Shown here piece after piece: positions 450 through 18,479 of a stretch of 22,316 bases of DNA. The notes under the pieces were generated by a model that saw only the letters and a list, made by a program, of their open reading frames with translations, did not search any database and was not told where the DNA came from. The position numbers and the translations under genes were made by a program. The DNA is taken from IMG/VR virus record IMGVR_UViG_3300048541_000100, positions 1-22,316 of that record, one strand, 5' to 3'. The DNA is from a virus. Each line of letters begins with the position of its first letter. The stretch's first letter is position 1.

Positions 450-788
450 CTATGCTATCTCCGTGTTCATTGCAGTACTTGCTGCACCTTGAGCTAAGTC
501 AGATACTGTGTCTGCTGCTTCTTCCCCGTCATCTGTGCTTACTTCGTCGGGTAATTGATTCTTAGTTTTAATGACTTCTCTGTTTACACTACTAGCATGT
601 CCGCTCTTATCAATTGCTGCAATAAGTTCGTCTGTTGTAGTAACATATCCTTGCTTGGCTAGAAGTGCTCTAAATTGTTCAGTAGGAATATCCGTCTCAC
701 CTTTTGCTCCTACTTTTGTAAGTAGATCTTGAACAGTAAGAATTAAATCGGAAAAATATCCCTCTGATATCACTTCTCTAATTAGCAT
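450..788 (-). CDS. Unknown protein with capsid-targeting-like N-terminus (112 aa)
   Basis: Begins MLIREVISE followed by GYF. The leader ends in an I-S-E tripeptide, the kind of site cut by the T4 prohead protease gp21, and resembles the T4 internal-protein leader MKTYQEFIAE. The rest is a mostly helical, acidic protein (VQDLLTKVGAKGETDIP at about residues 19-35, and DDGEEAADTVSDLAQGAAS near the end) with no recognised catalytic motif. GAGG lies about six bases before the ATG. It sits between the 435-aa acidic structural-type protein and the 105-aa protein, with one- and two-base spacings, so the three are co-translated. Packaging in the head is an inference. Confidence 0.75.
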   Translation of the reverse strand: MLIREVISEGYFSDLILTVQDLLTKVGAKGETDIPTEQFRALLAKQGYVTTTDELIAAIDKSGHASSVNREVIKTKNQLPDEVSTDDGEEAADTVSDLAQGAASTAMNTEIA

Positions 789-789
789 G

Positions 790-2134: not shown

Positions 2135-2142
2135 TATTTATC
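2135..2142 (-). promoter_or_regulatory. T4-like late promoter (GATAAATA)
   Basis: Minus-strand GATAAATA, one base different from the T4 late box TATAAATA, 37 bases before the start of the 435-aa gene. The same octamer precedes six other genes or operons in this window at 21-50 bases. Confidence 0.75.
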
Positions 2143-2570: not shown

Positions 2571-2792
2571 CTATAATTTTTGTTTTGCTGAGTATATAAT
2601 GTAGCACTCACACCCATTTTTGTTTACTTTATTGAAAATATTTTTTTGATGCATTACATCACAGAGATGTGCATCACGCTCAGACAGTTCATTTAATTTT
2701 AAACCGCCAAACAGTTCAGCCTGATCATATAGTTGTGTTTCAAACTTGTTAATTAGACTTAAGATGTTATCTTTACCTTTTACTGCTTTCAT
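2571..2792 (-). CDS. Small protein of unknown function (73 aa)
   Basis: Starts MKAVKGKDNILSL with an ATG that overlaps the stop of the sigma-region-4 gene in an ATGA (2789-2792), so it is translationally coupled to it. The protein looks mostly helical (LINKFETQLYDQAELFGGLKL then LSERDAHLCDV) with two closely spaced cysteines near the C-terminus (GCEC). No family is recognised. The coupling suggests a function together with the upstream gene, but nothing in the sequence shows it. Confidence 0.65.
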   Translation of the reverse strand: MKAVKGKDNILSLINKFETQLYDQAELFGGLKLNELSERDAHLCDVMHQKNIFNKVNKNGCECYIIYSAKQKL

Positions 2793-3466
2793 ATCTTTTG
2801 CTGATGCCTTGACTTTTTAGGCTTACCGTATCCGCCTGTTTGTAAAGTAGCCTCGGCATGCATTGCTGCCATGTGCTTCTTATATTTTTTAGTGCCTTTT
2901 TTATGTGGGCTTTTGCCTTCAGGCATAGTATCTTTGATATCTTTAACCATATCAGGATGTCTAAATTTGCGTAAAATCATTGATTCTATTTGTCGTGTTC
3001 TTTCTCTAGTAATACCAAACATTTTGCCAACATCTTCTAAACTATGTTGGTCCTCACCGTCAAGTCCATATCGTAAGGCTATAAGTTTTCTTTCTGCAGG
3101 TTTTAGTGTATCTAACATTTTAGAAAGTTTTTCATTTCTCTGCCTGTCCCTTATGTCTTTATCTAAGTCTTGATCGTATGTTAAGTCGTCATCGTCGAAT
3201 GAATCAAAGTCTTGTGCTTTGTTTACAGGATCTCTATCATCTAAATGTGGCATAGGTTGTTGCCTGTAAGTTTTGCCATCTGGATTATACAGAGATGCTT
3301 GTTGATTTGCATTTGCTTCGCTTGTTTTTTTCTTCTTTTTCTTTTTAGGAGTTGTATTAGCAAACACACTTGCATTAGGTCTTTTTTGCATAGCACCCAT
3401 AGGAGCTGCAACGGTAGCAATACCACCTGCACTAGTTGTTTCTTGAATAATATCGTTGATCTTCAT
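2789..3466 (-). CDS. Stand-alone sigma-70 region 4 protein (225 aa)
   Basis: Residues about 113-175 are a clear sigma-70 region 4: LKPAERKLIALRYGLDGED (4.1) followed by the helix-turn-helix SLEDVGKMFGITRERTRQIE (4.2) and LRKFRHPD, very close to the C-terminal end of bacterial RpoD. In RpoD this domain contacts the -35 element and the beta-flap of RNA polymerase. Regions 1, 2 and 3 are absent, so it cannot open a promoter by itself. In T4 the late co-activator gp33 occupies the beta-flap, so a comparable role is one inference. The N-terminus MKINDIIQE resembles a capsid-targeting leader ending in (I/L)-x-E, and residues 41-47 are seven lysines. The C-terminus is basic (KKGTKKYKKHMAAMHAE). No Shine-Dalgarno is seen. 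GGTAAATA lies five bases before the ATG. It lies 21 bases after the superoxide dismutase gene. Confidence 0.9.
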   Translation of the reverse strand: MKINDIIQETTSAGGIATVAAPMGAMQKRPNASVFANTTPKKKKKKKTSEANANQQASLYNPDGKTYRQQPMPHLDDRDPVNKAQDFDSFDDDDLTYDQDLDKDIRDRQRNEKLSKMLDTLKPAERKLIALRYGLDGEDQHSLEDVGKMFGITRERTRQIESMILRKFRHPDMVKDIKDTMPEGKSPHKKGTKKYKKHMAAMHAEATLQTGGYGKPKKSRHQQKI

Positions 3467-3487: not shown

Positions 3488-4024
3488 TTATGTTAGTCTA
3501 ACGTTTACAATGTCCCAGTTAATAATACGCCACATATTGTTTAAGTATTTGCCTTTGTCATGTTGGTAATCTAATGCCCAAGCATGTTCCCACCAGTCAA
3601 CTAACATTGCAATGTCATTTTTAACTTGATGATTAACTATTGTTTTGATATCACCGGATGTACTCATGTATACCCAGCCGCTACCTTGTATCTTCATTGC
3701 TACTTCTTCGAACTGTTCTTTGAATGTAGCAAAGTCTCCATACTTACTGTCTATAAGTTCTTTACTTGCACCAGTAGGATTATTACTACCACCTGGTGCT
3801 TTCAATTGTGGAAAAAATATATTGTGTAAGAATGCACCTGCTTCCATAAACTGTGCATCGCCTTTGCCCTCGTTAAATTTTGTAACGTATGCTTTAGCAA
3901 GTTTACCATAGTGAAAGTTAATTGTGTCCTCACTCATAACAGGATTGAGATCGCTTTTACCGTAAGGTAATCTTTCTTGTACAAGTACTTTCTTTTCTTC
4001 TGTTAAAAAATCATTTAAGTTCAC
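3488..4024 (-). CDS. Fe/Mn superoxide dismutase with N-terminal extension (178 aa)
   Basis: Fe/Mn family superoxide dismutases convert superoxide to oxygen and hydrogen peroxide. From residue 19 (LPYGKSDLNPVMS) the protein follows this family to its end. All four metal ligands are in place: His38 (INFHYG), His67 (AFLHNIFF), Asp143 and His147 (LVDWWEHAW). The active-site Tyr46 (KAYV) and Trp117 (GSGWVYM) are kept. His132 (VNHQV) occupies the place where Mn enzymes often carry Gln, which bears on metal preference. At 178 residues it is slightly shorter than usual bacterial forms. The first 11 residues, MNLNDFLTEEK, are extra to the family and resemble the T4 capsid-targeting leader. The start is GTG, overlapping the upstream stop as GTGA (4021-4024), so translation is coupled to the ParB-like gene. 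A packaged, injected antioxidant is an inference. Confidence 0.93.
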   Translation of the reverse strand: MNLNDFLTEEKKVLVQERLPYGKSDLNPVMSEDTINFHYGKLAKAYVTKFNEGKGDAQFMEAGAFLHNIFFPQLKAPGGSNNPTGASKELIDSKYGDFATFKEQFEEVAMKIQGSGWVYMSTSGDIKTIVNHQVKNDIAMLVDWWEHAWALDYQHDKGKYLNNMWRIINWDIVNVRLT

Positions 4025-4917
4025 TTCTTTTTTCCGCCTTTCATGTTAGCACACCAGTGATACATTTTGCCTTTTTCACCACTATACTTTTTAGCCTTTG
4101 CTCTTAAACTTGTTACAGAACCTTTACAACTAGCACCTGCTTTTTTGACTCTACCAGGCTTGCTTTTGCCTTTCTTCTTACCGTCTGCAAAGTTTTCGTC
4201 GATTGCATTTAATAATGCTTGAAGGTCTTGCATTGCTTCTATTGTTTCGTATATGCTACCGCCAAACTTAACACTTGAAGTTTTCTTCTTTTTCTTCTTT
4301 TTCTTTTTCTTGTACGGTGCTAGTGTACCTATTCCTAAAAATCCTCTACTAACAGGAGCATCCATAGTAGGAGCATCGCCTGGATCAGCACCACCTACAT
4401 CACCACCTGCATCACCACCGGAATCGCCTCCGCCTGTTGCTGCACCACCATCACCACCTGCACTTGCACCACCACTGGCTCCACCTGAGCCTCCTGCTCC
4501 GGCTCCACCGCCGGCTCCACCACCACCGCCTCCGGCGCCGTCTTCGTATGTTTCTTCGTCTCTGGCTTTACTACTGTAATGCTTTATTAATTCTTCTATA
4601 GTAGCATCGACTCTAATTGCTTTAACTTTATCTAAGTCTAATTCTAATGCTACATCATATCTATGATGTCCGTTGACAATAAAATTATTTTTGTCTATAA
4701 TTATAGGTCTTATACTACCATCATCAAAGCCACGCTTTGCTTTATCTTTTAATCCTTTTACTCGTTGCTTTTGCACAGGCTTTAGATTAGATACTGATAT
4801 GTTTCCTAACTTATATGAGAAAGGGCCGTCGTCAAGATCAGGTTGCCTAATCTGAGGCATAATCTTTCGCGGGAAGTTTTTTTCTTGCTCCGGCCTTTGT
4901 AACTCAGAAAGTTTCAT
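4021..4917 (-). CDS. ParB/Srx-fold protein with Gly-rich linker and Lys-rich tail (298 aa)
   Basis: Residues about 36-112 form a ParB-like domain: a start of GNISVSNLKPVQ, then RPIIIDKNNFIVNGHHRYDVALEL, where the NGHHRYDVA box is the characteristic nucleotide-binding loop of this fold (ParB CTPases, sulfiredoxin, some nucleases). Which activity applies is not clear. Residues 127-180 are almost pure Gly/Ala/Ser/Asp, followed by ten lysines at 203-212. A basic C-terminus has two cysteines, SCKGSV and YHWCANM, a small module I recall from other marine T4-like phage proteins. The start MKLSELQRPE resembles the neighbours' leaders only loosely and lacks a clean (I/L)-x-E. The ATG overlaps the stop of the 1958-aa gene by one base (TAATG), and the stop overlaps the superoxide dismutase start. 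Confidence 0.85.
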   Translation of the reverse strand: MKLSELQRPEQEKNFPRKIMPQIRQPDLDDGPFSYKLGNISVSNLKPVQKQRVKGLKDKAKRGFDDGSIRPIIIDKNNFIVNGHHRYDVALELDLDKVKAIRVDATIEELIKHYSSKARDEETYEDGAGGGGGGAGGGAGAGGSGGASGGASAGGDGGAATGGGDSGGDAGGDVGGADPGDAPTMDAPVSRGFLGIGTLAPYKKKKKKKKKKTSSVKFGGSIYETIEAMQDLQALLNAIDENFADGKKKGKSKPGRVKKAGASCKGSVTSLRAKAKKYSGEKGKMYHWCANMKGGKKK

Positions 4918-7900
4918 TATCTCATTGATACCTGTACTGCTGGTCCATTCATCTTGTCACCCCAATCCAATGAACCCAATTTAAACTTGTCTAAGTGATT
5001 TTTATAATCATCTACATCAAATGCTAAACTTTTCTTGCCGCCAAGTTTTAAGAACAAGAACATACTAAAGCCTTTTTCTTTGAGTATGTTTGCATAACTG
5101 CTGTAAGATATTTCGCCTGCTAGTGTACTTGCATCCGCTCTATCCATGCCAGTGTAGTTTGCAATCATATAGTTAATCATGCTTTTATCGCCATATTTAA
5201 ATGTAGCAGTAAATAGTTCTTGTATGTATGCTTTACCTGCACCTGCTGCAAGTGTGTCTAATTGAGTAGCAATATCCAGGAAGTGTGTTCCTGCTCTACT
5301 ACCTGCGTTACCACTTGGTAAACGTTGTGGTCTATCTTCTGGTGCAATTTTAAACTTGTCGTAAACTGCATCTAACTGTGGCTGTCCGTAGTCGGCATTA
5401 CTATTTTTAAGTCTGCCACCACCACTTGACTTCTCACCTTTAACTTCAACTTCGACACCATCAATTTTTAAATCACCTACACTAGCAAATGTAATGTTAG
5501 GTGCTAACAGTGCAAGACCAACTTCGCCTGGTCCTCTATTAGAGCCTTCAATGTTTAGTGCTATGTTAAACAAGTTATCATATAGTTCTGTTATAAATTC
5601 TGTACTAACTCCTTCGGCACCTTTTAGCCATTGATCCCATGTTGATGCACCGTCTGCCATTAAAACTTTAGTATCAACATAGCTCACTTGTCCGTATGTG
5701 GAAAGGAAGTTTTCGATGTCGTCAAAATCACCCTTAGTATTCATAATTGCTTTTACGAACTCTGGTAGTACACCTTTATAACTGTAGTCTGCTTCTGGTG
5801 CTGTTTTCTCTGGCTTTAAGAAATCTTCAGGGTGTACTCGTTCATGGTTTTCAGCATCTGTTCTCATAAAACGGTAAACTCGTTGTATGAATGCTGGGTT
5901 ATCTTTTAATTTATCTATAATAAAATTGAATCTTTCTTTATCTCTGTCTAAGTCATCTTCCGACAACATGCTTTCTTTAAGTCCTGCTTTTTGTTTAATA
6001 GTAGGATGTACTTTGTTTTGTACAAAGCCTTTGAATATAGAACGCAAATCAGTATCAGGACCTGCACCACTAGCGGCTTCTCTGAAAGCTCTAATCATAC
6101 TAGGATCAGGTACTACAAAATATGCTTCCATTTGTGCTTTTAAATCACTAGCAAGTAACGGAACATTTAGTAACTCTTGTATCTTCTTTTCTGGTGAGTT
6201 GTCTGGTACTGCACCTTCTACATATTTTGCTTTTTTACCAGACTTATTAGGGTGTTCAAAACCTTTACCTTTCTTTTTATATGCTTCGTTGATTTTATTA
6301 CTGTCAACTTTGTTCAATAAGTTTAATTGCTCTTCTAGTGGCAACTTGTCAAACTTGTTAAATGTACTTTCTTTACTCATCCTTCTAATCCTATCTCTTT
6401 GAGCTTGGGCGTCAGCTTCGCTACTATGTACTGTACTAACATCGTCTCCTAGACTACCATCAGCATTTAGTCTAAAATAGTTTCCGCCACTTACTTTATA
6501 ATTTTTTTCTATGTATTCTTTAGCCGCTTTAACCGCAGCCGCCCATCTTTCTGTGCCTATTGCTTTTTCATTATCTGGGCGCCAGTTGTGATTGCTGTCA
6601 AATTGATCATAAACTTTCTGTAACAAGTTTACACCTTGATTGCCTACGCCACGCTCTATTTTTAAGTAGTCTGCTAGATTACCCCAATTTGTGCTATTTG
6701 CTACACCGTTTGAAGATGCTCCTTCAAGTCCTTCTACATCAGCGGCGTCAACCATACCCGATATTGCGTTCTTTGCTTTTTGTTGTTTTTCTTGGTCTGC
6801 TTTTGCCTTCTTAGAAAGTTCTGGATTATTTACATGCCACGAAGCTGCTGCCATTGTATCAAGCGGTTCGCCGTATGGTCCTTCTGCTTCTTCACTTGGA
6901 AGTAATGGCTTGAACTGACCCATTCCTTCTCTGCCATCACCTAAGGATGGCTCAAATTTGACATTTCTTTGCTTTAATAAATTTTTAATTTCACCATCAT
7001 TTGAATTTATGTTTATGTAATTACTTTCGTCTGCTACTCCACTAAAACCAGCATCGTAAACTTGCTGGAATTTACGAAGTACTTTCATTGCTACTTTCTC
7101 TCTCCATGTACCTTTATGTGCATCATTTGCTAATATATCACTAGCAACTAATGCCTGATGATAATGAGCAGTAGGTATACTTAGTATGTTTCCAAGTCTA
7201 CTTTGTACTTTACTTTGTGGGCTTTGTAATTCTTGGGCAATATCACGGTCAGTGATCATATCTTCGCCGGCTTTAAGATTTCTATAATACGAACTTGAAA
7301 CAAATATTGAACCACCAAATTTAAATACTGGAAGTGTACCAATGTGTGGAGACCCGTGTTTTTTCTTAAACTGATCCTGTTTTACATCTAATTTTTTCTT
7401 TTTATCAATGGCTGTTTGTTGAGAATCAAATCCAAACTCTTGTGCAATTTTATCAAACCCTTCTAAGAAATTTTTTATATTAGTGGTACGCTCGCCAATT
7501 AACTTTTGTATATACTCGTCATCGTAGTAATCAGGAGTTCCTTTCTTTTTATCGTAATATCTTTCGTATGAAGATCTTAAATAATCTTGCATTGTATTTC
7601 TAAATCTGTGTGCAACTGGTTCACTAAACGCATCTGGTCTGCCTCTAACTTCATCAATAGCATTTTCCAATGTCTCTGCAGCATATTTGCTCATTGCAAA
7701 ATATGCAGGACCTTCACGCACATCTTCATGTCTAGTGCCTTTTACTTGAGGATGGTTATCAACCATATAATTGTCTTCGGCTTTATTTTGCTTAACTAGT
7801 TTTTCTGCAAGATCAGCAATTACCTTCATGCTATCATAATATTTTGCAGGCTGGTCTTGTCTAACATCTTCTAAATGTTCCCAACGAAGTCTCATTTTTT

Positions 7901-10793
7901 GCAACATTTTACTCATTGCATTTTCAATATAACTGTCTTGTCCTTGCTGTAGATCTGGATTATGATCTCTAGAAACAGCATGTTCCCATTGTGGGAATTT
8001 TTTGATATAATCTTGTAATTTGTTTAGCTCTTTTTTCATTATAGGCATGCCGGGTTCAAACATCTCTTGGTAATCATACCCTCCGGAAATTACTCTTTTA
8101 TGAAAAATTTTATATTGTGAATTAATATCAGATGATGTTTGAGTTGCTTTGTCTATAAACTCACCAGCATAATCTTTGCTTACTCTTGGAGATGCTGTAT
8201 CGATAAGGTCAGCAAGTTTTTCTTTGTCTAAGCCGTCTTCGGCATGCACAGCATTCCATAGTCCTTGTACAATTCTATCTGTTTGTGCCGCAGTTAAATA
8301 ATCTGGTTCTACAACAACTGTCTTTTTAAATAATCTATCGGAACCATTCTTAATTCTACTTAAACGTTCTTTATGTGTTAAAGTACCGCCTGGGTTTCTA
8401 CCAATCTCAACTGATTGATTAACATCAGGCGTAATAATTATCTTTCCTAATTGTTCGACAGTTAATTTAAATTCAGGTAATGTTTTTCTTAGTACGCCAA
8501 TGCCTTTAGCATTAATAGTTGCACGGTTTAAATTTTGACTTATATCATAACCTGCCTGTGCTATTGCTCTTGCAAATTTGTTTTGTGCTTTCTTTAAGTA
8601 TGCTTCAGCCTGTTTGCTTGGTGCTATTGTACTTGGTTGTATATAACCTGTTGTGGTTTCATCTTCTTCTAATCCATCAAGTTTTGTACCTGTACCTTTT
8701 TCGAAATCCTTTACACTTTGTTTCCATTTTTTATCAGCACCCGGAGCACTTAATTTTTTATATTCTTCTAATGTGTTAAATGCTGATGCCACTAAGTACA
8801 TACTGTTAACATAATTTTCTTTAGAAAAATAACCTTTTAATACATCTATTGCAGGATGTTCGACATCTGTTCTACTTTTTACACGCTCTTCATCATCAGG
8901 TGAAATAGTATCTAGTTTGCTTATCATTCTAAACAATGCTTTTACATAGTCGTCATTGTACATCTTGTCGCTATATGCAGCAGTCAATGTTGCCGCATAT
9001 CTAACAATTGCTTTTACTGCTGTATTATAATTATTATGGTAATCGTTGCCACCACCAATTCTAAATTCAATTAATTGGTTGCCTGTCTCTTTGTCAGATT
9101 CTTGTTTAAAATTAATAGCACTGAACTTATCTCTACTAATACCGCCTTTTAATATTTCTTCAATACCTTTTATAGTTTTAGTACTGTCAGGATTTCTTTT
9201 AAGTTCACTTGCCATTCTTTTTAAGTTATCCATTTGGCTTTTTGCATAAGAGTTTCCTTCTCTGCCAAATGTACTTAATAAATATTTGTCGCCTAACAGT
9301 ACAGCAAGTTTAACATCGTTAATATCTTCTTTTTCTTCACTGTCTAGACTCATTGTAACATGTAATCCAGTTGAACTATTTGTTTCGGCGCCTTGCTCTT
9401 CTAACCACTCAAATAAACTTTTCATTTCACCGAGCATTTCTTTTGGTGTGCTGTACACTGGGCTAATTATTTCTGCCCCTGTGCCACCTGAATCAATCGA
9501 ACTATCATCCTCTACACGCCAATAATCTATTCCACCGCTAGTGGAATGATATTCACCAACTTGTACTTCGTTGAACTTACTGTTATTGTACATCCAGTCT
9601 TCTAATCCCGCGGACACTTCCTCTAATCCGCCGCCTCCATTTGGATTGTAAAGATAAATTCCAAATTCTGAAAGACAACTACTCCAACTACCGTACTCGT
9701 TACTTGCCCAGTCGTCTATGCTATTACTATCTCTTGCATCATCATAGGCTCTTTCCATTGCTTCGCCTTCGTCGCGAACACCATCTGCAAGCCATTCTTT
9801 GTACTCATCGAGTAATTCTTCTTCCACATACTGACGACCCCAAGCCATAAAGTCCCAATCTTCGAACTCTTCCAATTGGTCATCGTCCATGTCTTCTACT
9901 TGATTTTCTTTGTATTCCCTTATGTCATCTTCGTCTAATTCTTGATCTATGTAATCGTTGAGATATACTTCGTCCTCTTCTCTTTCGCTAACTATTTCCC
10001 AAACAATATCACTTTCGAGGTCCATCGCCTGTTCGCTAATCCATTCATCGTACGCATCATTAATAGTATCAACCGAGCCTCGACCATCTTGATCTGCAAC
10101 AAAATCTTCAATGTCATACCAGTTATATTCGTATAACCAGTCACCCTCATCATCATCACTTCCACCATAAATATTTTCCCAACTTGTTTCGGCTTCGAAT
10201 CCACATTTAATAGGTGCAACTAATGCTTCTTTTGCTAACTTCTGACTATTAAAATTAATCTCAAATAGTAGTTCGTCACCTTGCTCACGGCGTTTATGCT
10301 CTCGAGTAAGTCTCTTAATTTTTTGGCCTATGTGACTTTTCTTTTGTCTTTTAGTAAGCATTTTGCCAAGTTTGCCTTCACTTACTTCCTGCTCTTCGCC
10401 TGGCAGTGTAATATCATCGTCTGGATTAAGTGTAAAAAATTCTTTGCTTTTTTGGTTTTGTACAACAACTGCATCTTTGTTTAAGCCATTGTCTACTGGG
10501 CTTACAACTTTAATAATGTCGCCTTTGTCGTCTTGGTATTCAAAGTCTTGTGCTAACTCTTTTGCTTTTGATATAGTTGGCTCAACTGGTGCTGGTTGTT
10601 CAGTGTCAGTCTTATTTTGCTGACTGCTAGGACTTACTTGAGGTTTGTTTACACTTGATTTTGGTGGTTTAGCGGCTGCTGTTGCTTTAGCAGTTGAACC
10701 TGTTTTTTGTTGAGATGTTGGTGTACTTGCACCACTAGACATGCCGTACTCAGAAATTAAAGACTTTAGTGTGCGTATATCCTTCGCTTTCAT
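4917..10793 (-). CDS. Giant protein: amidoligase-like and PD-(D/E)XK nuclease-like domains (1958 aa)
   Basis: The N-terminus MKAKDIRTLKSLISE ends in I-S-E, like a gp21-cleaved leader, and is followed by a Ser/Thr/Pro/Lys linker (20-75). Residues about 195-600 match the putative amidoligase pattern (COOH-NH2 ligase of the glutamine-synthetase-like fold): KCGFEAE (196-202), WRVEDDSSID (425-434), GAEIISP (439-445), STGLHVTMS (474-482) and IEFRIGGGN (575-583). Residues 211-370 are a strongly acidic insertion (61 Asp/Glu of 160). Residues about 700-1750 are mostly helical and unassigned. Near the C-terminus, Glu1757, Asp1774 (VGDLKIDG) and Glu1783-Val-Lys1785 (VEVKGE) followed by GGGRLK form a PD-(D/E)XK nuclease-like site. 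No transmembrane segment is seen. It starts six bases after the Arg-rich gene. Both enzyme assignments are by motif only. Confidence 0.85.
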   Translation of the reverse strand: MKAKDIRTLKSLISEYGMSSGASTPTSQQKTGSTAKATAAAKPPKSSVNKPQVSPSSQQNKTDTEQPAPVEPTISKAKELAQDFEYQDDKGDIIKVVSPVDNGLNKDAVVVQNQKSKEFFTLNPDDDITLPGEEQEVSEGKLGKMLTKRQKKSHIGQKIKRLTREHKRREQGDELLFEINFNSQKLAKEALVAPIKCGFEAETSWENIYGGSDDDEGDWLYEYNWYDIEDFVADQDGRGSVDTINDAYDEWISEQAMDLESDIVWEIVSEREEDEVYLNDYIDQELDEDDIREYKENQVEDMDDDQLEEFEDWDFMAWGRQYVEEELLDEYKEWLADGVRDEGEAMERAYDDARDSNSIDDWASNEYGSWSSCLSEFGIYLYNPNGGGGLEEVSAGLEDWMYNNSKFNEVQVGEYHSTSGGIDYWRVEDDSSIDSGGTGAEIISPVYSTPKEMLGEMKSLFEWLEEQGAETNSSTGLHVTMSLDSEEKEDINDVKLAVLLGDKYLLSTFGREGNSYAKSQMDNLKRMASELKRNPDSTKTIKGIEEILKGGISRDKFSAINFKQESDKETGNQLIEFRIGGGNDYHNNYNTAVKAIVRYAATLTAAYSDKMYNDDYVKALFRMISKLDTISPDDEERVKSRTDVEHPAIDVLKGYFSKENYVNSMYLVASAFNTLEEYKKLSAPGADKKWKQSVKDFEKGTGTKLDGLEEDETTTGYIQPSTIAPSKQAEAYLKKAQNKFARAIAQAGYDISQNLNRATINAKGIGVLRKTLPEFKLTVEQLGKIIITPDVNQSVEIGRNPGGTLTHKERLSRIKNGSDRLFKKTVVVEPDYLTAAQTDRIVQGLWNAVHAEDGLDKEKLADLIDTASPRVSKDYAGEFIDKATQTSSDINSQYKIFHKRVISGGYDYQEMFEPGMPIMKKELNKLQDYIKKFPQWEHAVSRDHNPDLQQGQDSYIENAMSKMLQKMRLRWEHLEDVRQDQPAKYYDSMKVIADLAEKLVKQNKAEDNYMVDNHPQVKGTRHEDVREGPAYFAMSKYAAETLENAIDEVRGRPDAFSEPVAHRFRNTMQDYLRSSYERYYDKKKGTPDYYDDEYIQKLIGERTTNIKNFLEGFDKIAQEFGFDSQQTAIDKKKKLDVKQDQFKKKHGSPHIGTLPVFKFGGSIFVSSSYYRNLKAGEDMITDRDIAQELQSPQSKVQSRLGNILSIPTAHYHQALVASDILANDAHKGTWREKVAMKVLRKFQQVYDAGFSGVADESNYININSNDGEIKNLLKQRNVKFEPSLGDGREGMGQFKPLLPSEEAEGPYGEPLDTMAAASWHVNNPELSKKAKADQEKQQKAKNAISGMVDAADVEGLEGASSNGVANSTNWGNLADYLKIERGVGNQGVNLLQKVYDQFDSNHNWRPDNEKAIGTERWAAAVKAAKEYIEKNYKVSGGNYFRLNADGSLGDDVSTVHSSEADAQAQRDRIRRMSKESTFNKFDKLPLEEQLNLLNKVDSNKINEAYKKKGKGFEHPNKSGKKAKYVEGAVPDNSPEKKIQELLNVPLLASDLKAQMEAYFVVPDPSMIRAFREAASGAGPDTDLRSIFKGFVQNKVHPTIKQKAGLKESMLSEDDLDRDKERFNFIIDKLKDNPAFIQRVYRFMRTDAENHERVHPEDFLKPEKTAPEADYSYKGVLPEFVKAIMNTKGDFDDIENFLSTYGQVSYVDTKVLMADGASTWDQWLKGAEGVSTEFITELYDNLFNIALNIEGSNRGPGEVGLALLAPNITFASVGDLKIDGVEVEVKGEKSSGGGRLKNSNADYGQPQLDAVYDKFKIAPEDRPQRLPSGNAGSRAGTHFLDIATQLDTLAAGAGKAYIQELFTATFKYGDKSMINYMIANYTGMDRADASTLAGEISYSSYANILKEKGFSMFLFLKLGGKKSLAFDVDDYKNHLDKFKLGSLDWGDKMNGPAVQVSMR

Positions 10794-10799: not shown

Positions 10800-11096
10800 T
10801 TAACGCCTTCTTCTTACTGGTCTATTGAGTGATTTTAACCTCTTTGCCATAGGATTAAATCTTTTAGTTCTACGAGCTTTACGAATCATTCGTTTGCCCA
10901 TTTTGGCTTTTGTTCTTCTCAGTGTCATACGCTTTTTGAGATCAATTGGCTTTGCACATTGACTTGGATTAGCAACAACTCTGCCTGCTCGTGGACCGCT
11001 TGTACAACGGACAGCACGTTTAATCTTGTTGCCCATACGGCGCCAAACCATACGAGCTTCGAGGATTTCTCCCTCTACTATTTCATCAAGTCTCAT
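10800..11096 (-). CDS. Very basic Arg/Lys-rich protein (98 aa)
   Basis: I choose the ATG at 11096 (MRLDEIVEGEILEARM), which overlaps the stop of the preceding one-TM gene as ATGA. The longer frame would add 26 Cys/Tyr-rich residues from inside that gene. The leader MRLDEIVE ends in I-V-E, with a second site I-L-E before ARM. The remainder contains VRCTSGPRAGRVV and NPSQCAKPIDLKKRM (two cysteines), then a run rich in Arg and Lys ending VRRRR. I recall this Cys-containing basic module from marine T4-like phages. It would bind nucleic acid; a DNA-associated internal head protein fits both charge and leader, but this is inference. Confidence 0.8.
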   Translation of the reverse strand: MRLDEIVEGEILEARMVWRRMGNKIKRAVRCTSGPRAGRVVANPSQCAKPIDLKKRMTLRRTKAKMGKRMIRKARRTKRFNPMAKRLKSLNRPVRRRR

Positions 11097-11771: not shown

Positions 11772-11779
11772 TATTTATC
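11772..11779 (-). promoter_or_regulatory. T4-like late promoter (GATAAATA)
   Basis: Minus-strand GATAAATA. With late geometry +1 falls near 11766, giving a 16-base leader with GGAG before the ATG at 11750. It appears to drive the long operon down to about 2158, in which I see no internal terminator. Confidence 0.8.
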
Positions 11780-12281: not shown

Positions 12282-12298
12282 AAACTAAATGTTAAAAC

Positions 12299-12547: not shown

Positions 12548-12596
12548 GGTTATTCTCCTAAATATAATGTAGAGCTAATTCTTTACTCTATGTACT

Positions 12597-12604: not shown

Positions 12605-12613
12605 AATCTAGTC

Positions 12614-12641
12614 ATAAAAAAAGGCAGTTAAACTGCCTTTT
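12614..12641 (-). terminator. Rho-independent terminator
   Basis: Near-perfect hairpin AAAGGCAG/CTGCCTTT with loop TTTAA, followed by T-run on the minus strand. About 20 bases after the stop of the 86-aa MAQ gene. Confidence 0.87.
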
Positions 12642-12662
12642 AATATCTAAAGTTAGTTAAAC

Positions 12663-12923
12663 TTAGAATGATACATCAGCAATAACGTGTGCTGCAATGT
12701 CACCGTTTGCTAAGTTATCTGCACCTTCAACTATCATTTTAACTGTATCGCCTGATACTGCGCCAACTTTAAGTACTGAAAGGTTTAAGTTTTGAACAGA
12801 GCTAACTAATGCTGTTAATTGAGTTGCTGAAATATTTCCTGATTGTTGTTGAAAACTTTTAAGAAATACATCTTTACCAATAAACTCGCCTGCTGCTGCT
12901 GATCTTCTATCTGCTTGTGCCAT
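12663..12923 (-). CDS. Small MAQ-family virion-type protein A (86 aa)
   Basis: Starts MAQADRRSAAAGEFIGKD. The helix QLTALVSSVQNL, strand LSVLKVGAV and segment VKMIVEGADNLANGDIAAHV correspond in order to the parts of the other two MAQ proteins. AGGAG lies seven or so bases before the ATG, and the late promoter at 12954-12961 is 31 bases upstream. A terminator follows at 12614-12641. It is the first of three independent one-gene units, which suggests high expression and separate dosage. Function as a capsid or tail decoration protein is an inference from size, late promoter and insulation. Confidence 0.82.
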   Translation of the reverse strand: MAQADRRSAAAGEFIGKDVFLKSFQQQSGNISATQLTALVSSVQNLNLSVLKVGAVSGDTVKMIVEGADNLANGDIAAHVIADVSF

Positions 12924-12961: not shown

Positions 12962-12964
12962 AAT

Positions 12965-13522
12965 CTATGCTTTAAAATCCGATTTATTTATACTAAGAGC
13001 GTCTAAGTTTCTGGCTTGTGATTTTGCTTTTCCTAATGCTGAACTAAATGTTGTTCCAAGATCTGTTGTGTTTAGACCTGCTGTTGGATTTAATTTCTTT
13101 AATATTCTTTGTCTTGTGTTGCCATCACCGGCAGTATAATCTTTGACTGCATTCTGGTTACCTACTTGGGCACCTCGTTTTTTCTTAGGCTCTGCTGACA
13201 GTTTAACTGGAGAATCAGTATTTGTTTTATCAGATTTCTTTTTAGATTTTCTGTCTTTTGTTTGTTTCTTGCCAGTTACATATTCACTGTCTGGGTACAT
13301 ATCTTGTACTGCTGCTTTGATTGCTGTTCCTGCATTATAATTTGGCTTATTAAAATATTGTAAAGCATTCATAACAACTGAAGCCTTATGGAATTGCATT
13401 GCCCACTGATACTTGTTTCCGTTAGGATCTAAAAACTCGCCGTCAAATTCTTGATTAAGTAATTCAAGTGAATCTTTAGTACCTTGGGTTTCACGCTCTG
13501 CTATAATTTCATCAATTCTCAT
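12965..13522 (-). CDS. Basic protein with capsid-targeting-like N-terminus (185 aa)
   Basis: Begins MRIDEIIAE followed by RET; the I-A-E end is the same tripeptide as in the T4 internal-protein leader MKTYQEFIAE. Residues 30-80 look folded (FLDPNGNKYQWAMQFHKASV), and 85-125 are a disordered Lys/Ser/Asp stretch (KKQTKDRKSKKKSDKTN, then EPKKKRGAQVGNQNA). The C-terminal third is polar. No enzymatic motif is recognised. AAGGAAG precedes the ATG, which overlaps the stop of the 268-aa gene as ATGA. Last gene of the operon from 18738. A DNA-associated, packaged protein is a plausible inference. Confidence 0.78.
   Translation of the reverse strand: MRIDEIIAERETQGTKDSLELLNQEFDGEFLDPNGNKYQWAMQFHKASVVMNALQYFNKPNYNAGTAIKAAVQDMYPDSEYVTGKKQTKDRKSKKKSDKTNTDSPVKLSAEPKKKRGAQVGNQNAVKDYTAGDGNTRQRILKKLNPTAGLNTTDLGTTFSSALGKAKSQARNLDALSINKSDFKA
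12985..12992 (-). promoter_or_regulatory. Possible second late promoter (canonical TATAAATA)
   Basis: Minus-strand TATAAATA, identical to the T4 late consensus, inside the last codons of the 185-aa gene and 62 bases before the 86-aa MAQ gene. It may add to the promoter at 12954-12961, or may only be coding sequence. Confidence 0.4.
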
Positions 13523-14325
13523 GTTTGTTTCTTCCTTCTACCAGCAGCCCAATAACCTGCTATAGCACCAATACCGGTACCTGCTTTTTTAACTGTATCA
13601 GGTTTTTCTTTAGCAAGTTTTGTTAATTTCTTAGCGGCATACCTACCTGCGGCTGCACCAATTGCTGCACCTGCTACTTTTTGTGCAAAACTAGTTCTTG
13701 GTACATCATATGCTGGTTCTGTGCTATACTTCCTATATTTAACCATAGTAGACATAGGTGTAAGTAATTCACTTCCTCTTCCTATGCTACGCATTGTTTG
13801 TAATATTTTTGTTACTACTAGTTGTCTACTTGAATACTTTAAATTACCCCAATCAGTAATAAATCTACGGTATTGTTTATACTTAGAATCTGTAATTTGT
13901 AGTTGTGCTTCTAGTCTAAAGAAGTAACTAACTGCTTCATTTTTTCTATCAGAGCCGTTTGCAATTTTTTTCATAAACATAAAATGCTTTCTAGCATCAA
14001 AGTTTATATTTTGTAAAAAAGAAGTACTTGCTACTCTGTTCTTTAATGTTATTTTATTACTCTTAGGATTTGCAATTGTAAAACATAGCATGTATAAGTC
14101 AGTAGCACTAGTTCTAAATGTAGTATATCCACCATACTGGGAGGTTTGCTTTGCATAATTTGCTGCATAGCCATGTTGTACATCATCCTGTACCATCATA
14201 TAAAGTGCAATGGTATTTAAATAAGTTAGATTAGCAACATCTCTACCAGTGAGCTGACGCATATTGCCAGAAGATCTGTATAATCTACTTTCAGATATTT
14301 CTTGATCTATAAATTCTAATTCCAT
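13519..14325 (-). CDS. Unknown protein with C-terminal glycine zippers (268 aa)
   Basis: Starts MELEFIDQEISE then SRLYRSS; the leader ends in I-S-E like its neighbours, though less typical. Residues about 25-205 are a helical, Tyr- and Arg-rich globular part (GRDVANLTYLNTIALYMM) with no known motif. Residues 211-268 hold two glycine-zipper segments (VAGAAIGAAAGRYAA and AGTGIGAIAGYWAAG) separated by a lysine-rich stretch, a pattern of membrane-inserting proteins. An ejected protein that touches the host membrane is possible. The ATG overlaps the stop of the 429-aa gene by one base, and AGGAT precedes it. No homologue is recognised. Confidence 0.75.
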   Translation of the reverse strand: MELEFIDQEISESRLYRSSGNMRQLTGRDVANLTYLNTIALYMMVQDDVQHGYAANYAKQTSQYGGYTTFRTSATDLYMLCFTIANPKSNKITLKNRVASTSFLQNINFDARKHFMFMKKIANGSDRKNEAVSYFFRLEAQLQITDSKYKQYRRFITDWGNLKYSSRQLVVTKILQTMRSIGRGSELLTPMSTMVKYRKYSTEPAYDVPRTSFAQKVAGAAIGAAAGRYAAKKLTKLAKEKPDTVKKAGTGIGAIAGYWAAGRRKKQT

Positions 14326-15614
14326 TATCCTGTTGGCTTCCCTGTTCCAAAGTTTAATCTACTGAATTCCATTCTGTCAACTAGTTTGAGAGCATTACCA
14401 ATTCTGTCAATAGCAACAAAACCTTCTCCGCTTGTGGCTTTAAATCCTTCGCCATCGGCTGCAAAAGTTTGTGTGCTTTGTAATTTTCCTAACTTAGCAA
14501 TAATGGCCAACTTTGCTTTGATCAACATCATGTATAAATCATACACTGCTGTGATTTCTCCTGCATGTTGTTTAATGAATGTTACAGTCTGAACCATTTT
14601 TTCAGTTTTAGCATCTTTAGTTGCTTGTCTTTTTACTTTGTCAATTTCTTTTGTAGACTTATCAATCCATTTTACAACAAATTCTTTTGCTAAACTTTCA
14701 GGGGAGCCAAAGTCTCCTGCTCTAATCTTATTGTTTACTGTGGCTTTTAGTTGTTGTAAGAAATCTTTGCCCACTAAGTCGTTGCCTTTCTCTAACCAAT
14801 TAAACACATCTTTACTAATTTGCTTAGTGTAAGTGTCAGCGGCTTTGATAGTTGCTAATACTTCTGCTGATTCTTCAGCAGTCATTGTTACTGTACCTGA
14901 TACATCCTTGATGTTTGCATCTGTTTGCCAAACACTAGATGTACTGCCTAATCTATTTGAATCGAATCCAAATGTTGCTGTTGTATCTGCTAGTGTTGGT
15001 CCGCCTGCGTACTCTGTGTGCCACACTATACCTAGCTCAGCACTTAGCATTTGCTGTGCTAGTTCACTGTCCTTTGGTAAAGCATAAGCAAGAGTATTAG
15101 GCTTAAAATATATTAAGGCTTCACCATCGTGATTCATTTCTTTGATGTCACCTTTTTGAAACATCAAGTCGCCTTGTGCAACTGTGTCCCATTTTAATTT
15201 GCTTAAATGTTTTAAACAATTTTTTAATTTGATTCGTAAACCACTGCCGTCTTTGTCGCCTCTGTCTGCGTGGTACTTGTCGATGTCTTCTTCAGTGAAG
15301 TTAAGTTTTGCTTTTCCTGCAAACACACCTTTAGTACCTACAAAGAATTTGCCAGTTGCTGGATCTTTACCTGCTACGATTGCAGGTGAACCGTCCCACT
15401 TAACAGTCATATCAAATGCACCTTTTGCGTTACCTTCTAACATTTGATGCAAACTATACAAGTAATCTACTGCTTCTTTGGCTCCTTGATATCCTTTGTT
15501 AAAGATATTATCTTCAAGGTGTTCCATGTGAGTGTTCTTGCCGTCTGCTTCTAACAACAAGCTCTCATTGATTACTCTAGTTACTAGAGGTTTTGATATC
15601 TCTATAAAACGCAT
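14325..15614 (-). CDS. Ligase-like nucleotidyltransferase candidate (429 aa)
   Basis: Residues 72-76 are KWDGS, the form of motif I (K-x-D-G) of covalent nucleotidyltransferases (DNA/RNA ligases, capping enzymes), where Lys binds AMP; T4 RNA ligase 1 has KEDGS. Downstream FFVGTKGVF (90-98) resembles the ligase FxxKSKG segment, and QGDLMF (147-152) could be motif III. IYFKPN and GIVWHTEY (195-202) follow, a pattern I recall from uncharacterised marine T4-like phage proteins. A clear motif IV and V are not seen, so activity is uncertain. The C-terminal half is helical and Lys-rich. The leader MRFIEISKPLVTRVINE ends in I-N-E, with a second LLE before ADG. The stop overlaps the next ATG (TAATG). 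Confidence 0.82.
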   Translation of the reverse strand: MRFIEISKPLVTRVINESLLLEADGKNTHMEHLEDNIFNKGYQGAKEAVDYLYSLHQMLEGNAKGAFDMTVKWDGSPAIVAGKDPATGKFFVGTKGVFAGKAKLNFTEEDIDKYHADRGDKDGSGLRIKLKNCLKHLSKLKWDTVAQGDLMFQKGDIKEMNHDGEALIYFKPNTLAYALPKDSELAQQMLSAELGIVWHTEYAGGPTLADTTATFGFDSNRLGSTSSVWQTDANIKDVSGTVTMTAEESAEVLATIKAADTYTKQISKDVFNWLEKGNDLVGKDFLQQLKATVNNKIRAGDFGSPESLAKEFVVKWIDKSTKEIDKVKRQATKDAKTEKMVQTVTFIKQHAGEITAVYDLYMMLIKAKLAIIAKLGKLQSTQTFAADGEGFKATSGEGFVAIDRIGNALKLVDRMEFSRLNFGTGKPTG

Positions 15615-18479
15615 TTAGATGCCTGCTAACTTTTTCATTTCTGACATTTGTACAACATCAGTTGGTATTAGCATAACATGTGATGTTACACTTTCTGAAA
15701 TTAATACTTCGTATCCTATATCTGCCCAAGTAAGTCCTGCATGTTCTAGTATAGCACACATGTGTTCGTATGCTTCTGCTCTCATGCTTCTTGCCATTTT
15801 AACAAAAGTTGCGTATGCTTGTGGATCTGATTTTGCTAATCCACCTTTCTTCATTACTGGAGCTGCCGCTTGTATAAATTTATCTGCATCGTATCCTTTA
15901 CTTTTTAGTTCACTTAATTTAGCAACTAATGCTTTTGCAGATGCTAAGTCACCTTGTAGTGTCTTAGACTGTAACATTTTTAACTCTGCTGTAGTAGGAC
16001 CTGGTACTGCTTTAGGAGCACCTTGTGCTGGCTGTTGTCCTTGTGGTTGTGCTGGCTGTTCACCTGCTTGTGGTTGTGCTGGTTGTCCTGGTTGTGCTGG
16101 TTGCTCTGGTGTTCCTGGTTCCTCTGGTGTTCCTGGTTCTGCTTGTTGTCCGCCACCGGACTTACCAAACATTCCACCAATTGCTGCTCCTACTACGCCT
16201 GCTGCTTTCTTTCCTAAACTTGCTTTAGGATCTGATCTTGTTTTTTGTGCTAAGCCTGGTGTTTTACCTGATACCCAATCTTTTGCTCTTTGTATTAAAC
16301 CAGGATTCTTTAATGCAGTACCGTCACCGTTTCTGCCATACTTTGCCATTAAGTCTTGTTGCATTGCACCTTGTGCAGATCTACCTTGTGGGTCTTTCCA
16401 GCCTGTGCCGTCAAATGTAAACTTAATGCCATTAATTGTTTCTGACTTGCCTACTTTCAATTCTGGTAAATTTGAATCTTCTGCATCGCCATCTTGTGCT
16501 TGTTGTACACCTTTGCCTATTGCGCCACTACCACCTGCAGAACCCCCTGTAGGACCGCTTGTAGTGCCCTGTGCGCCTGTTTGTTGTCCTCCGGCACCTT
16601 GTGCACCACCTTGAGGTTGATCAGGCTGTGTGCCGCCCTGTGGTTGTTCTGGTTGCCCACCCTGTGGTTGTTCTGGTTGTTCTGGTTGTTCTGGTTGTTC
16701 TGGTTGTTCTGGTTGTTCACCTTGTGGTTGCTCTGGCTGTTCGCCTTCTGGCTCTTCTTCTGGTGCTACTGCTTCTACACCAGCCGCTTTAAATGCCGCA
16801 TCAACTTCTTCTTTTGTTGCACCTGCATTCTTTTGCAAGAATTTAGCAACATCATCTGACTCTGTTGGTGATTTAGCCGCTGTATAATCTGCTTGTAATT
16901 TCTCAGGATCTATTGCACCTTGCATACCTGTTATTGCTGCTATCTTATTTGTAAATGCTTTTACTGGAGCACTGTTAAGAATTGGCTTGATAACAGTATT
17001 AACTGCGGCAGTACCAACTGCTTTGGCTGCTTGTCCTACTTTGCCTACTGCTGACTTATATGCACCACCAACTTTTTTAGCAATGCCACCTAAATCTGGT
17101 GCTTCGCTCATTGTTTGTTCTATGTTTTCGATTAATTTATGCTCTTGTAAATGCTCCATGCCTTCAATAATAACTTTATTATCTTTAACATGTTTGTTGT
17201 ACCATTCCAGCATAACAAATACTGCTACTTCTTCACCTACTTGTTCAACTAATGCATCAAAGTCTTCGCCAACTTCTTCTGATAATACATTTTTCCACTC
17301 AGGATGTACAAAACTTTGAGTCAAGTTGTCTGCTACATCACCACCTACTTCGCTTTTTACTGCTCCACCAACTGATGCTGCAATTTGATTTCTAAATTCT
17401 CCAGCTTCTGCGGAAAATAATCCATCCATGCCGCCGCCATTAGCTGCAACAATTTGATTGTATTCTGCAAATTCTTGTGGATCCATTAGCACACCCATTG
17501 ATGAACCAAAGCCTTCTGCCTTCATTACAAGTTTGCCGTCTGTGATTTCAGCACTTCGTGCCATCATAGATTCGTATTTGTCTGCATACTCAGGACCAAC
17601 ATTCATTCTTCCTAAGAGTTCTTCGGTTGCTGTAGGCTGAGCTGAGAATAATTCATCTGCTAACGCATCTTCATCAGCATTTAGGTTATCGATAAACGAA
17701 TCAATTTCGTCCATGCTCATTCCTGCGTCTTGTCCTGCACTTGCTAAGTCAACTTCTTGAGCTGGGAAAGATGTTGACATTAAGTTTTCATCACCTTCTA
17801 TTGGTACATCTCCAAATCCACTTAGTATATTACCTGCAAGTCCTGCAATAGCACCTTTGGCTGCGCCTACGGCTGCTGTTTTAGCAATGTCTGCTACAGT
17901 TCCACCTGCGGCTGCTTTGATAGCACTGTCTACTACTGTTCTAAATATTGCTGTTGTTCCTATAATACCAAGTACTGCTGGTCCACCTGCTCCTGCGACA
18001 CCCATTCCAATAGTGATAACTGTCATCATCAAGCCTTTGAATGCTGCAATGTCTTCATCATTTTCAATTGACTGAGCACCTTTTTGGATAGCGGCAACAA
18101 CTGCTGATGCATTTTTGCCTGCAGGGTCTGGTAATTTTGCAACCATTACTTTTAATCTTTCAATAGGTACTGCGTTACCTACTTTAGATAGTATTGCTTT
18201 AAGTTTGGGATTACCAGTTATTTTTGCAAATAATGGTGTTAGTTGAAGTTGAGCTTTCTTTGCTAGTTGAGCAGTGTTTCCACCTTCGCCACGATTAGTA
18301 ACTAAGCTCTGAAATACACCTTGTATTTGCTCTGGCGCAAGTGCTGCCTCGTTGAGTTTAGTTAACTCTCTAACTATTGTATTTAAATCTTCTCTAACAG
18401 AAACAGGCAGTTCTTGCCAGGCTTCGTTTATCTTAATATTTTCTGTTATTAGATCAATATCTTTACGAATTAGATTCAT
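15615..18479 (-). CDS. Large repeat-rich protein with a membrane-like segment (954 aa)
   Basis: Leader MNLIRKDIDLITE ends in I-T-E, with a second I-N-E before AWQ. Residues about 145-223 form long Gly/Ala/Val/Ile-rich hydrophobic stretches (GLMMTVITIGMGVAGAGG, then TAAVGAAKGAIAGLAGNI) that could cross or perforate a membrane. A second such area follows near 470-530 (KKVGGAYKSAVGKVGQAAK). Residues about 570-640 are Gln/Pro/Glu repeats (EQP units) and 765-815 are Pro/Gln/Gly-rich, both likely flexible. A short folded unit, INGIKFTFDGTGWKDPQG, lies between. The C-terminal about 120 residues are a helical domain (YEHMCAILEHAGLTWADIGY). No enzyme motif. The start overlaps the 91-aa gene by 17 bases; GGAAG precedes it. 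Confidence 0.8.
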   Translation of the reverse strand: MNLIRKDIDLITENIKINEAWQELPVSVREDLNTIVRELTKLNEAALAPEQIQGVFQSLVTNRGEGGNTAQLAKKAQLQLTPLFAKITGNPKLKAILSKVGNAVPIERLKVMVAKLPDPAGKNASAVVAAIQKGAQSIENDEDIAAFKGLMMTVITIGMGVAGAGGPAVLGIIGTTAIFRTVVDSAIKAAAGGTVADIAKTAAVGAAKGAIAGLAGNILSGFGDVPIEGDENLMSTSFPAQEVDLASAGQDAGMSMDEIDSFIDNLNADEDALADELFSAQPTATEELLGRMNVGPEYADKYESMMARSAEITDGKLVMKAEGFGSSMGVLMDPQEFAEYNQIVAANGGGMDGLFSAEAGEFRNQIAASVGGAVKSEVGGDVADNLTQSFVHPEWKNVLSEEVGEDFDALVEQVGEEVAVFVMLEWYNKHVKDNKVIIEGMEHLQEHKLIENIEQTMSEAPDLGGIAKKVGGAYKSAVGKVGQAAKAVGTAAVNTVIKPILNSAPVKAFTNKIAAITGMQGAIDPEKLQADYTAAKSPTESDDVAKFLQKNAGATKEEVDAAFKAAGVEAVAPEEEPEGEQPEQPQGEQPEQPEQPEQPEQPEQPQGGQPEQPQGGTQPDQPQGGAQGAGGQQTGAQGTTSGPTGGSAGGSGAIGKGVQQAQDGDAEDSNLPELKVGKSETINGIKFTFDGTGWKDPQGRSAQGAMQQDLMAKYGRNGDGTALKNPGLIQRAKDWVSGKTPGLAQKTRSDPKASLGKKAAGVVGAAIGGMFGKSGGGQQAEPGTPEEPGTPEQPAQPGQPAQPQAGEQPAQPQGQQPAQGAPKAVPGPTTAELKMLQSKTLQGDLASAKALVAKLSELKSKGYDADKFIQAAAPVMKKGGLAKSDPQAYATFVKMARSMRAEAYEHMCAILEHAGLTWADIGYEVLISESVTSHVMLIPTDVVQMSEMKKLAGI
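16018..16146 (-). repeat. Imperfect Pro/Gln/Gly-coding repeats
   Basis: Degenerate 9- to 12-base units on the plus strand (ggttgtgct, ggttgtcct, ggtgttcct) encode a Pro/Gln/Glu/Gly-rich linker of the 954-aa protein. In frame throughout. Confidence 0.7.
16666..16719 (-). repeat. Tandem 9-base repeat (six units) coding EQP
   Basis: Six consecutive copies of ggttgttct on the plus strand (the last differs at one base), coding an (EQP)n run at about residues 588-605 of the 954-aa protein. Length change by one unit keeps the frame, so copy number may vary among relatives. Confidence 0.9.

Follow-up and report, generated by a model that had tools for sequence, protein, structure and literature searches.

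A T4-type capsid-targeting leader proposed for nine unrelated late proteins of a marine giant phage

Why should nine proteins with unrelated mature parts begin with much the same short leader? The question is raised by a 22,316-nt fragment of a marine giant phage, IMGVR_UViG_3300048541_000100 (the window, here meaning the whole of the fragment), from which head genes are absent. The leaders are 9-17 residues long and end in (I/L)-x-E (Table 1), and a sequence-only reading had taken their bearers for a packaged, injected set like the internal proteins of phage T4. A capsid-targeting sequence (CTS) is expected to span about 10-20 residues; in T4 it has 10-19, of which residues 4 and 7 target the protein and residues 8 and 10 govern processing (PMC9026906). 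T4 leaders for comparison are MKTYQEFIAE and, on Alt, MELITELFDE. All nine open reading frames and their N-termini are present as that reading described them, and the single positions under which it listed the leaders are the starts of minus-strand genes.

Table 1. Leaders, protein segments and late-promoter-like sites in the window
Feature	Position	Strand	Remarks
Leader MLIREVISE, 112-aa protein	762..788	-	gene 450-788
Leader MKINDIIQE, 225-aa sigma70-r4 protein	3440..3466	-	gene 2789-3466
Leader MNLNDFLTE, Fe/Mn superoxide dismutase (SOD)	3998..4024	-	gene 3488-4024
Leader MKAKDIRTLKSLISE, 1958-aa amidoligase-like protein	10749..10793	-	gene 4917-10793
Leader MRLDEIVEGEILE, 98-aa Arg/Lys-rich protein	11058..11096	-	gene 10800-11096
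Leader MRIDEIIAE, 185-aa protein	13496..13522	-	gene 12965-13522
Leader MELEFIDQEISE, 268-aa protein	14290..14325	-	gene 13519-14325
Leader MRFIEISKPLVTRVINE, DUF6267 protein	15564..15614	-	gene 14325-15614
Leader MNLIRKDIDLITE, 954-aa protein	18441..18479	-	gene 15615-18479
Variable cargo slot, 225-aa protein	2921..3322	-	holds Sigma70_r4 (PF04545), about 2957-3115
Basic C-terminal domain, 298-aa ParB-like protein	4021..4194	-	AIDE before it, candidate internal cleavage site
GATAAATA late-promoter-like site	18767..18774	-	ahead of 91-954-429-268-185 aa operon
GATAAATA late-promoter-like site	11772..11779	-	ahead of 141-83-98-1958-298-SOD-sigma operon
GATAAATA late-promoter-like site	2135..2142	-	ahead of 435-112-105 aa operon

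Within the window, [IL]xE falls in residues 2-19 of 15 of the 23 proteins, against a background of 0.167 taken from the same window proteins (binomial p=2.7e-7), and the stricter [ILVFM][IL]xE in 9/23 against 0.043 (p=2.6e-7). A second shared feature, M-x-[ILFAV]-x-[DE]-[IFLV], occurs in 9/23 window proteins as opposed to about 1% of relatives' internal methionines; the leaders appear to follow a pattern particular to this lineage, M-[K/R/N]-[I/L/F]-x-[D/E]-[I/F/V]...[I/L]-x-E. The bare tripeptide was rejected as a genome-wide predictor: it is not enriched in a 340-kb relative (16/348 vs 9-20/348), nor does it separate the proteins of Pseudomonas phage PA5oct detected in virions by mass spectrometry (MS) from the others (7/91 vs 21/346), and so its diagnostic value depends on conservation, context and an accompanying N-terminal motif. 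Leader and site combined are found in 6/91 MS-positive PA5oct proteins and 1/346 others (Fisher p=4e-4), a comparison that is not fully blind because the PA5oct list was already known by the time the sharper motif was derived from the window. Partial likeness to the motif is also seen in the start of the 91-aa protein (MRKTRSIIEE) and in the N-terminus of the 298-aa protein, MKLSELQRPEQE.

Conservation among relatives locates the signal at the boundary between leader and body. The tripeptide at this junction is retained in 55 of 57 comparisons, as against 170/380 (45%) for internal [IL]xE, and all nine junctions persist in orthologues despite leaders that have diverged or changed length: examples are MLIREVISE / MLIREVILSE / MRIAEVFLLE, MKINDIIQE / MLIKDIITE / MKISDIIIE, MNLNDFLTE / MKIIDFLTE, MRIDEIIAE / MKINEIILLE, ..SLISE / ..HVLKE / ..HLLME, ..QEISE / ..QELSE / ..EDLCE and ..RVINE / ..NILSE. 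The site is kept in 3/3 relatives of the 112-aa protein despite insertions, in 8/8 of the 185-aa protein, in 9/9 of the 954-aa protein though the N-termini vary widely, and in 9/10 of the 1958-aa protein (the tenth being a truncated ORF); the leader of the SOD is retained in 4/4 and that of the 225-aa protein in all relatives compared, and in the 268-aa protein [IL]xE followed by S[RK]L[YF]R is retained in 12/12. One predicted cleavage site had been misplaced. In the 98-aa protein, cleavage had been assigned after IVE8, which is retained in only 3/9 relatives; ILE13, preceding ARMVWRR, is retained in 8/9 (and is present in the ninth given a TTG start), and conservation therefore favours cleavage after residue 13. 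Two proteins served as negative controls: the site of the 262-aa protein, which had been described as lacking the leader, drifts from LYE to LYD, and that of the 435-aa protein is not retained among relatives, so neither was accepted as a leader protein.

The leader genes were also said to lie in late-type operons, and, judged by promoter motif, this is borne out. The GATAAATA motif occurs 7 times in the window (1.46 expected) and precedes the operons; in the 340-kb relative 42 of 61 occurrences are directly upstream of genes, the portal and sheath genes among them. The motif thus suggests late expression alongside head genes. The head genes themselves can be followed in relatives. A gp21-type protease, which the sequence-only reading had named as a check, is encoded by the 340-kb relative (PF03420 match at E=5.8e-25; T4 gp21 structure 5jbl at E=5.9e-14) together with gp22, gp68, gp23 and gp20, and is present by homology in PA5oct as well. 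The order is that of T4: portal, gp67-position protein, gp68-like, gp21, gp22, gp23. The PA5oct gp67-position protein is MS-positive and bears the leader MKINDIITE, nearly identical to MKINDIIQE of the 225-aa protein; that of G001 has a targeting-like start, MRLNEFYEP, without [IL]xE, and gp22, gp68 and the MCP of the clade have [IL]xE sites close to the N-terminus.

PA5oct also gives a view of the virion itself. Homologues of two of the nine proteins, the 112-aa protein (MKIKDILVE/SDEY, predicted cut) and the SOD, were detected in its virions by MS, which does not place them inside the head; a SOD leader from PA5oct or a relative is MNDSIKKYISIAE. PA5oct has no homologue of the other seven, whose packaging we infer. 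The homologues of the leaderless 262-aa and 435-aa proteins are MS-positive too, so the leader is unnecessary for virion presence, and because the MS set includes leaderless metabolic enzymes (RNR, thymidylate synthase), detection does not prove packaging.

The proposed cargo is varied. The SOD is identified by Pfam profile matches, and the Amidoligase_2 match of the 1958-aa protein is barely above the cut-off. The DUF6267 assignment (E=4e-99) opens a wider comparison: among 74 full-length homologues, 73 carry a leader that closes with [IL]xE ahead of an invariant body, and leaders from other marine T4-like phages, e.g., MIRFKKFIAE/SKNTH (predicted cut), resemble T4 MKTYQEFIAE. In distant phages, DUF6267 and SOD proteins have different CTS-like leaders, and on most phage SODs the leader is of another sequence that closes with [ILV]xE; there is no leader on the Vibrio 2.275.O SOD or on the S-SZBM1 DUF6267 protein. 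An identity of DUF6267 as a DNA/RNA ligase is suggestive only and is not claimed (K-W-D-G is invariant, the predicted model has pLDDT 71, and the top PDB match is DNA ligase IV at E=0.8). The 954-aa protein ends in MKKLAGI, resembling the LAG tail of the gp22 scaffold. Relatives encode the basic domain of the 298-aa protein as a separate 65-aa protein starting MKIVEITE/NFADGKKKG (predicted cut).

The 225-aa protein is unusual in that its middle is wholly unlike between related phages while both ends are conserved. In related phages the slot holds a CxxC zinc-ribbon-like segment or one of several unknown domains, or is empty; these other slot domains had no Pfam match, and no Sigma70_r4 was found elsewhere in the genomes of four relatives. 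Tentatively, the protein might be a modular delivery vehicle in which domains are exchanged between a fixed capsid-targeting leader and an equally fixed basic tail, EGKSPHKKGTKKYKKHMAAMHAE, and its packaged sigma-r4 might act on host RNA polymerase when infection starts. If so, a phage could exchange injected effectors inside one gene.

The T4-type character of the leader is well supported, if indirectly, by the conserved tripeptide, the gp21/gp22/gp68/gp23/gp20 of the relative, the PA5oct gp67-position leader, the late promoters and the MS detection of 2/9 homologues. The idea of a packaged, injected set is supported in part, one cleavage site having been misplaced, and a capsid-targeting system of the T4 type, loaded with new cargo, is the likely explanation of the locus. 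The proteins would be made late, from GATAAATA promoters common to head and tail genes; by analogy with T4 and from the PA5oct gp67-position leader, the leader would dock them on a gp22/gp67/gp68 prohead core, where a gp21-type protease would cut after [I/L]-x-E and free the mature protein within the maturing head. The cargo (Fe/Mn-SOD, slot-borne sigma70 region-4, amidoligase-like giant, DUF6267, basic Arg/Lys-rich protein and others) would travel in the virion and, most likely, enter the host along with the DNA; injection is suggested by analogy with T4 Alt and the internal proteins. Plausible jobs in the host are oxidative-stress protection, RNA polymerase redirection, and DNA/protein modification or condensation.

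Other explanations account for part of these observations. The leader could be a prohead-core docking signal for proteins that enter and are cut but serve assembly or head structure, with no delivery to the host. Its presence on the gp67-position core protein, the [IL]xE sites near the N-termini of gp22, gp68 and MCP, and the LAG tail that the 954-aa protein has in common with gp22 would fit such a role, but work in assembly is not obvious for a SOD, a sigma70-r4 domain, an amidoligase-like protein or slot domains that are exchanged freely, and we consider this explanation rather unlikely. Cleavage is itself a prediction here, and the N-terminal propeptides of other giant phages are longer (PMC5694885); an uncleaved leader might send its proteins to the virion or elsewhere, with the E conserved for binding. 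What is retained, however, is the exact gp21 tripeptide, fixed at the junction despite leader insertions, and the 340-kb relative has a gp21-type protease, which leaves this a very slim prospect. That short, charged, amphipathic N-termini contain [IL]xE by chance is scarcely credible: on its own the tripeptide turns up often (in about 17% of 18-residue stretches) and is unenriched genome-wide, but the enrichment in the window (p about 3e-7), the conserved junctions and the leaders of DUF6267 homologues all argue against coincidence.

If the capsid-targeting reading is right, a short tag that can be read from sequence foretells, for uncultured marine T4-like and giant phages, which of their unknown proteins travel in the head and probably on into the host; such cargo is otherwise nearly impossible to deduce from sequence. 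Superoxide dismutase and a sigma-factor domain would join the kinds of protein that phages may pre-load, and cultured relatives such as PA5oct make this reading of the tag directly testable.

The closest known system is that of T4, in which IPI, IPII, IPIII and Alt likewise carry a short N-terminal leader ending in [IL]xE on otherwise unrelated products of late genes, and whose CTS-cutting gp21 has a counterpart in the 340-kb relative. The differences lie in the leader consensus, which resembles T4 gp24 (MAKINELLRE) and the gp67-position protein of PA5oct more closely than it does the internal proteins, in the cargo (SOD, sigma70-r4 domain, amidoligase-like 1958-aa protein, DUF6267) and in the exchangeable middle of the 225-aa protein. 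The phiKZ-like giant phages (SPN3US, phiKZ, 201phi2-1) also pack many proteins into the head and remove N-terminal propeptides by a prohead protease, but those propeptides are mostly >100 residues long with other motifs (PMC5694885), unlike the 9-17 residues and T4 motif seen here, where there is moreover a clear gp22 scaffold. Enzymes in virions are known from T4-like cyanophages, whose cytidylyltransferases (NMNAT) were reported there by MS (PMC9146016, PMC10665884); whether such enzymes are carried or contaminants is left open in PMC9602691 and PMC10665884, whose available portions name no leader for them. Two of these cytidylyltransferases start MRFRQFIIE/AVAA and MKNFSSFLTE/ADEK (predicted cuts), canonically CTS-like. 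They would be virion enzymes with a CTS-like leader, as proposed here for different enzymes, and the leader tag, if correctly read, would readily explain their puzzling presence.

Every gene of this 22,316-base viral record lies on the minus strand. The window encodes a T4-type helicase and primase (phrog_19, phrog_47), and its remainder includes a long run of genes, mostly unknown. The helicase is best matched by the giant Pseudomonas phage PA5oct and its kin (53%), followed by Sinorhizobium phage Phosso and Agrobacterium phage Atu_ph07. Uncultured viruses closely related to the window include a 339,794-base contig (L021, or G001; here the 340-kb relative), with a DUF6267 identity of 63%, and fragments of 92 kb (95%), 102 kb (83%) and 53 kb (89%). 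Marine T4-like phages (L202, L203, L204) also have a mostly unknown gene block near the genes for the gp41 helicase and gp61 primase, or between them; some of its genes have leaders like the T4 capsid-targeting sequence (CTS) and some are reported in virions.

The sequence-only reading had given nine window proteins a short leader ending in [IL]xE, and all nine leaders were found at those gene starts. The tripeptide occurs within residues 2-19 of 15/23 window proteins, where the background rate of these proteins is 0.167 (p=2.7e-7), and with a preceding hydrophobic residue in 9/23 against 0.043 (p=2.6e-7). A second common start feature, M-x-[ILFAV]-x-[DE]-[IFLV], is present in 9/23 window proteins versus about 1% of the relatives' internal methionines. 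Across the 340-kb relative bare [IL]xE is not enriched (16/348 versus 9-20/348 in control stretches), so the leaders form a local set rather than a general habit.

The junction between leader and body (the slash below) is kept in orthologues though leader sequence or length differs: MLIREVISE/GYF, MLIREVILSE/GYF and MRIAEVFLLE/SFF in one case, SLISE/YGM, HVLKE/YGA and HLLME/YGM in another. Over eight families, with a tolerance of two residues, [IL]xE was kept in 55/57 comparisons at the junction versus 170/380 at internal sites; the negative controls were the 262-aa protein (LYE to LYD) and the 435-aa protein. DUF6267 was handled separately: in a list inspected by eye, 73 of 74 full-length homologues carry, right before the body, a leader that ends in [IL]xE, and in the sole exception (L029) another LVE follows a few residues later. 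This count takes in phages at only about 42% identity, whose leaders (MIRFKKFIAE/SKNTH, MQRLSSFLTE/DKNTH) resemble T4 MKTYQEFIAE. Phage superoxide dismutases (SODs) from diverse contigs mostly have varied leaders ending in [ILV]xE, such as MKYFSTFITE/EKAK and MNNDLSQLKQFITE/VENK. For the 98-aa protein the cut proposed earlier, after IVE8, was misplaced; the conserved site is ILE13/ARMVWRR. A 231-aa unknown marine-phage family (L205-L231), also found elsewhere in the relative, has MRELKDIINE, MELKNYIAE or MQFKDFLTE before a constant SF.KEY.

The motif GATAAATA has 7 copies in the window versus 1.46 expected, all on the gene strand and ahead of genes. In the 340-kb relative, 42 of its 61 copies are followed, 8-120 bases downstream, by a gene start on the same strand (7% for random positions), and the genes behind it include portal, tail sheath and tail tube. 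Judged by this placement it is most likely the late promoter, and joint expression of the leader genes with virion genes is therefore probable. Three small leaderless proteins starting MAQ each stand behind their own copy; at the matching place PA5oct has two small proteins (MVQKVHGG, MTQKIHG), both detected by mass spectrometry (MS-positive). The gp21-type protease of the 340-kb relative (PF03420, E=5.8e-25) also matches the T4 gp21 structure 5jbl (E=5.9e-14, GVSSRG/GVASRG motif aligned). Its gene is flanked by those for gp22 and a gp68-like protein, and these, together with the portal and major capsid genes, are arranged as in T4. The small PA5oct protein in the gp67 position, encoded between the portal and gp68-like genes, is MKINDIITEGYYN; it is MS-positive, and its leader differs at one position from MKINDIIQE of the window's sigma-like protein. 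T4 itself has MKTYQEFIAE on IPII and IPIII, MELITELFDE on Alt and MAKINELLRE on gp24. A C-terminal tail, [RK][LK]LAG[IL] or similar, is common to the scaffold protein gp22, the 954-aa protein and a protein of 539-744 aa that has KKxIIYPGRFQPM close to its N-terminus; the tail is possibly a second core-binding signal.

Coordinates of features in the window and in related phages
Feature	Sequence	Position	Strand
GATAAATA late-promoter-like sites	window	2135, 11772, 12232, 12597, 12954, 18767, 21992	gene (minus)
225-aa sigma-like protein	window	2789-3466	minus
298-aa ParB-like protein	window	4021-4917	minus
Candidate AIDE site	window	near 4194	
Three MAQ proteins	window	11893-12923	minus
DUF6267 protein	window	14325-15614	minus
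C-terminal LAG-type tail	window	15615-18479, C-terminus	
C-terminal LAG-type tail	340-kb relative (G001)	270962-272074	
Block syntenic with window	PA5oct	144,985-160,138	

Virion data come from the 'ESI-MS/MS' notes on PA5oct genes. MS-positive proteins are numerous in the block syntenic with the window, among them homologues of the 105-, 112-, 141-, 262- and 435-aa proteins and SOD; of the nine leader proteins, just two, the 112-aa protein and SOD, have homologues in PA5oct, and both homologues were detected. Genome-wide, bare [IL]xE does not separate MS-positive proteins (7/91) from others (21/346). The motif M-x-[ILFAV]-x-[DE]-[IFLV] occurs in 9/91 versus 7/346 (p=0.0016), and together with an [IL]xE site in 6/91 versus 1/346 (p=4e-4), in a comparison that is not fully blind because the sharper motif was derived from the window after the PA5oct list had been seen. 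The MS set also includes metabolic enzymes without a leader, so being detected does not by itself prove packaging. Cyanophages give a second, independent hint: cytidylyltransferases detected in virions of S-SZBM1 (PMC9146016) and S-CREM2 (PMC10665884) open MRFRQFIIE/AVAA and MKNFSSFLTE/ADEK, respectively. The neighbouring DUF6267 protein of S-SZBM1 lacks a leader and does not appear among the proteins detected by MS in the part of the PMC9146016 table that was covered; this contrast is a single case and only suggestive.

What is read directly from sequence is the set of leaders with their conserved junctions, the relative's genes for protease and scaffold, and the putative late-promoter motif. 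By analogy with T4 (PMC9026906, PMC5694885), the leader would dock each protein on the prohead core and be cut off by the protease, and the cut protein would stay in the head. Less firmly than these three steps, we infer that the cargo then enters the host, where the plainest guesses are antioxidant protection by SOD and action of sigma region 4 on RNA polymerase. The CTS and its use for varied cargo in T4-like phages are already known (PMC9026906). In the searched literature, which left out most subscription journals, this leader form is not described for PA5oct-like giant phages, no CTS is reported on SOD, on DUF6267 or on a domain of a sigma factor, and the cargo slot described below does not appear; such absence is not proof of priority.

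The cargo itself is varied. DUF6267 has an invariant K-W-D-G resembling ligase motif I; a ligase was not called, the structure model and fold search being too weak. In the 298-aa ParB-like protein a C-terminal basic domain follows AIDE, and in relatives (L019, L003) that domain is a separate 65-aa protein behind its own leader, MKIVEITE, which suggests an internal cut in the fusion at the candidate AIDE site. The 225-aa sigma-like protein combines a constant leader and linker, MKINDIIQE/TTSAGGIATVAAPMGAMQKRPNASVF, with a constant basic tail, EGKSPHKKGTKKYKKHMAAMHAEATLQTGGYG..., around an exchangeable middle. Among close relatives (DUF6267 89-100% identical, where comparison was possible) this slot holds sigma70 region 4 (window, L190), a CxxC zinc-ribbon-like sequence (L182) or unrelated sequences (L184, L193). 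The middle is different again in L186 (SOD 93% identical), and more distant relatives have other sequence or almost nothing (L191). T4 internal-protein loci are likewise hypervariable, their products sharing the leader only (PMC12373910), but in the window protein the exchange takes place inside one gene.
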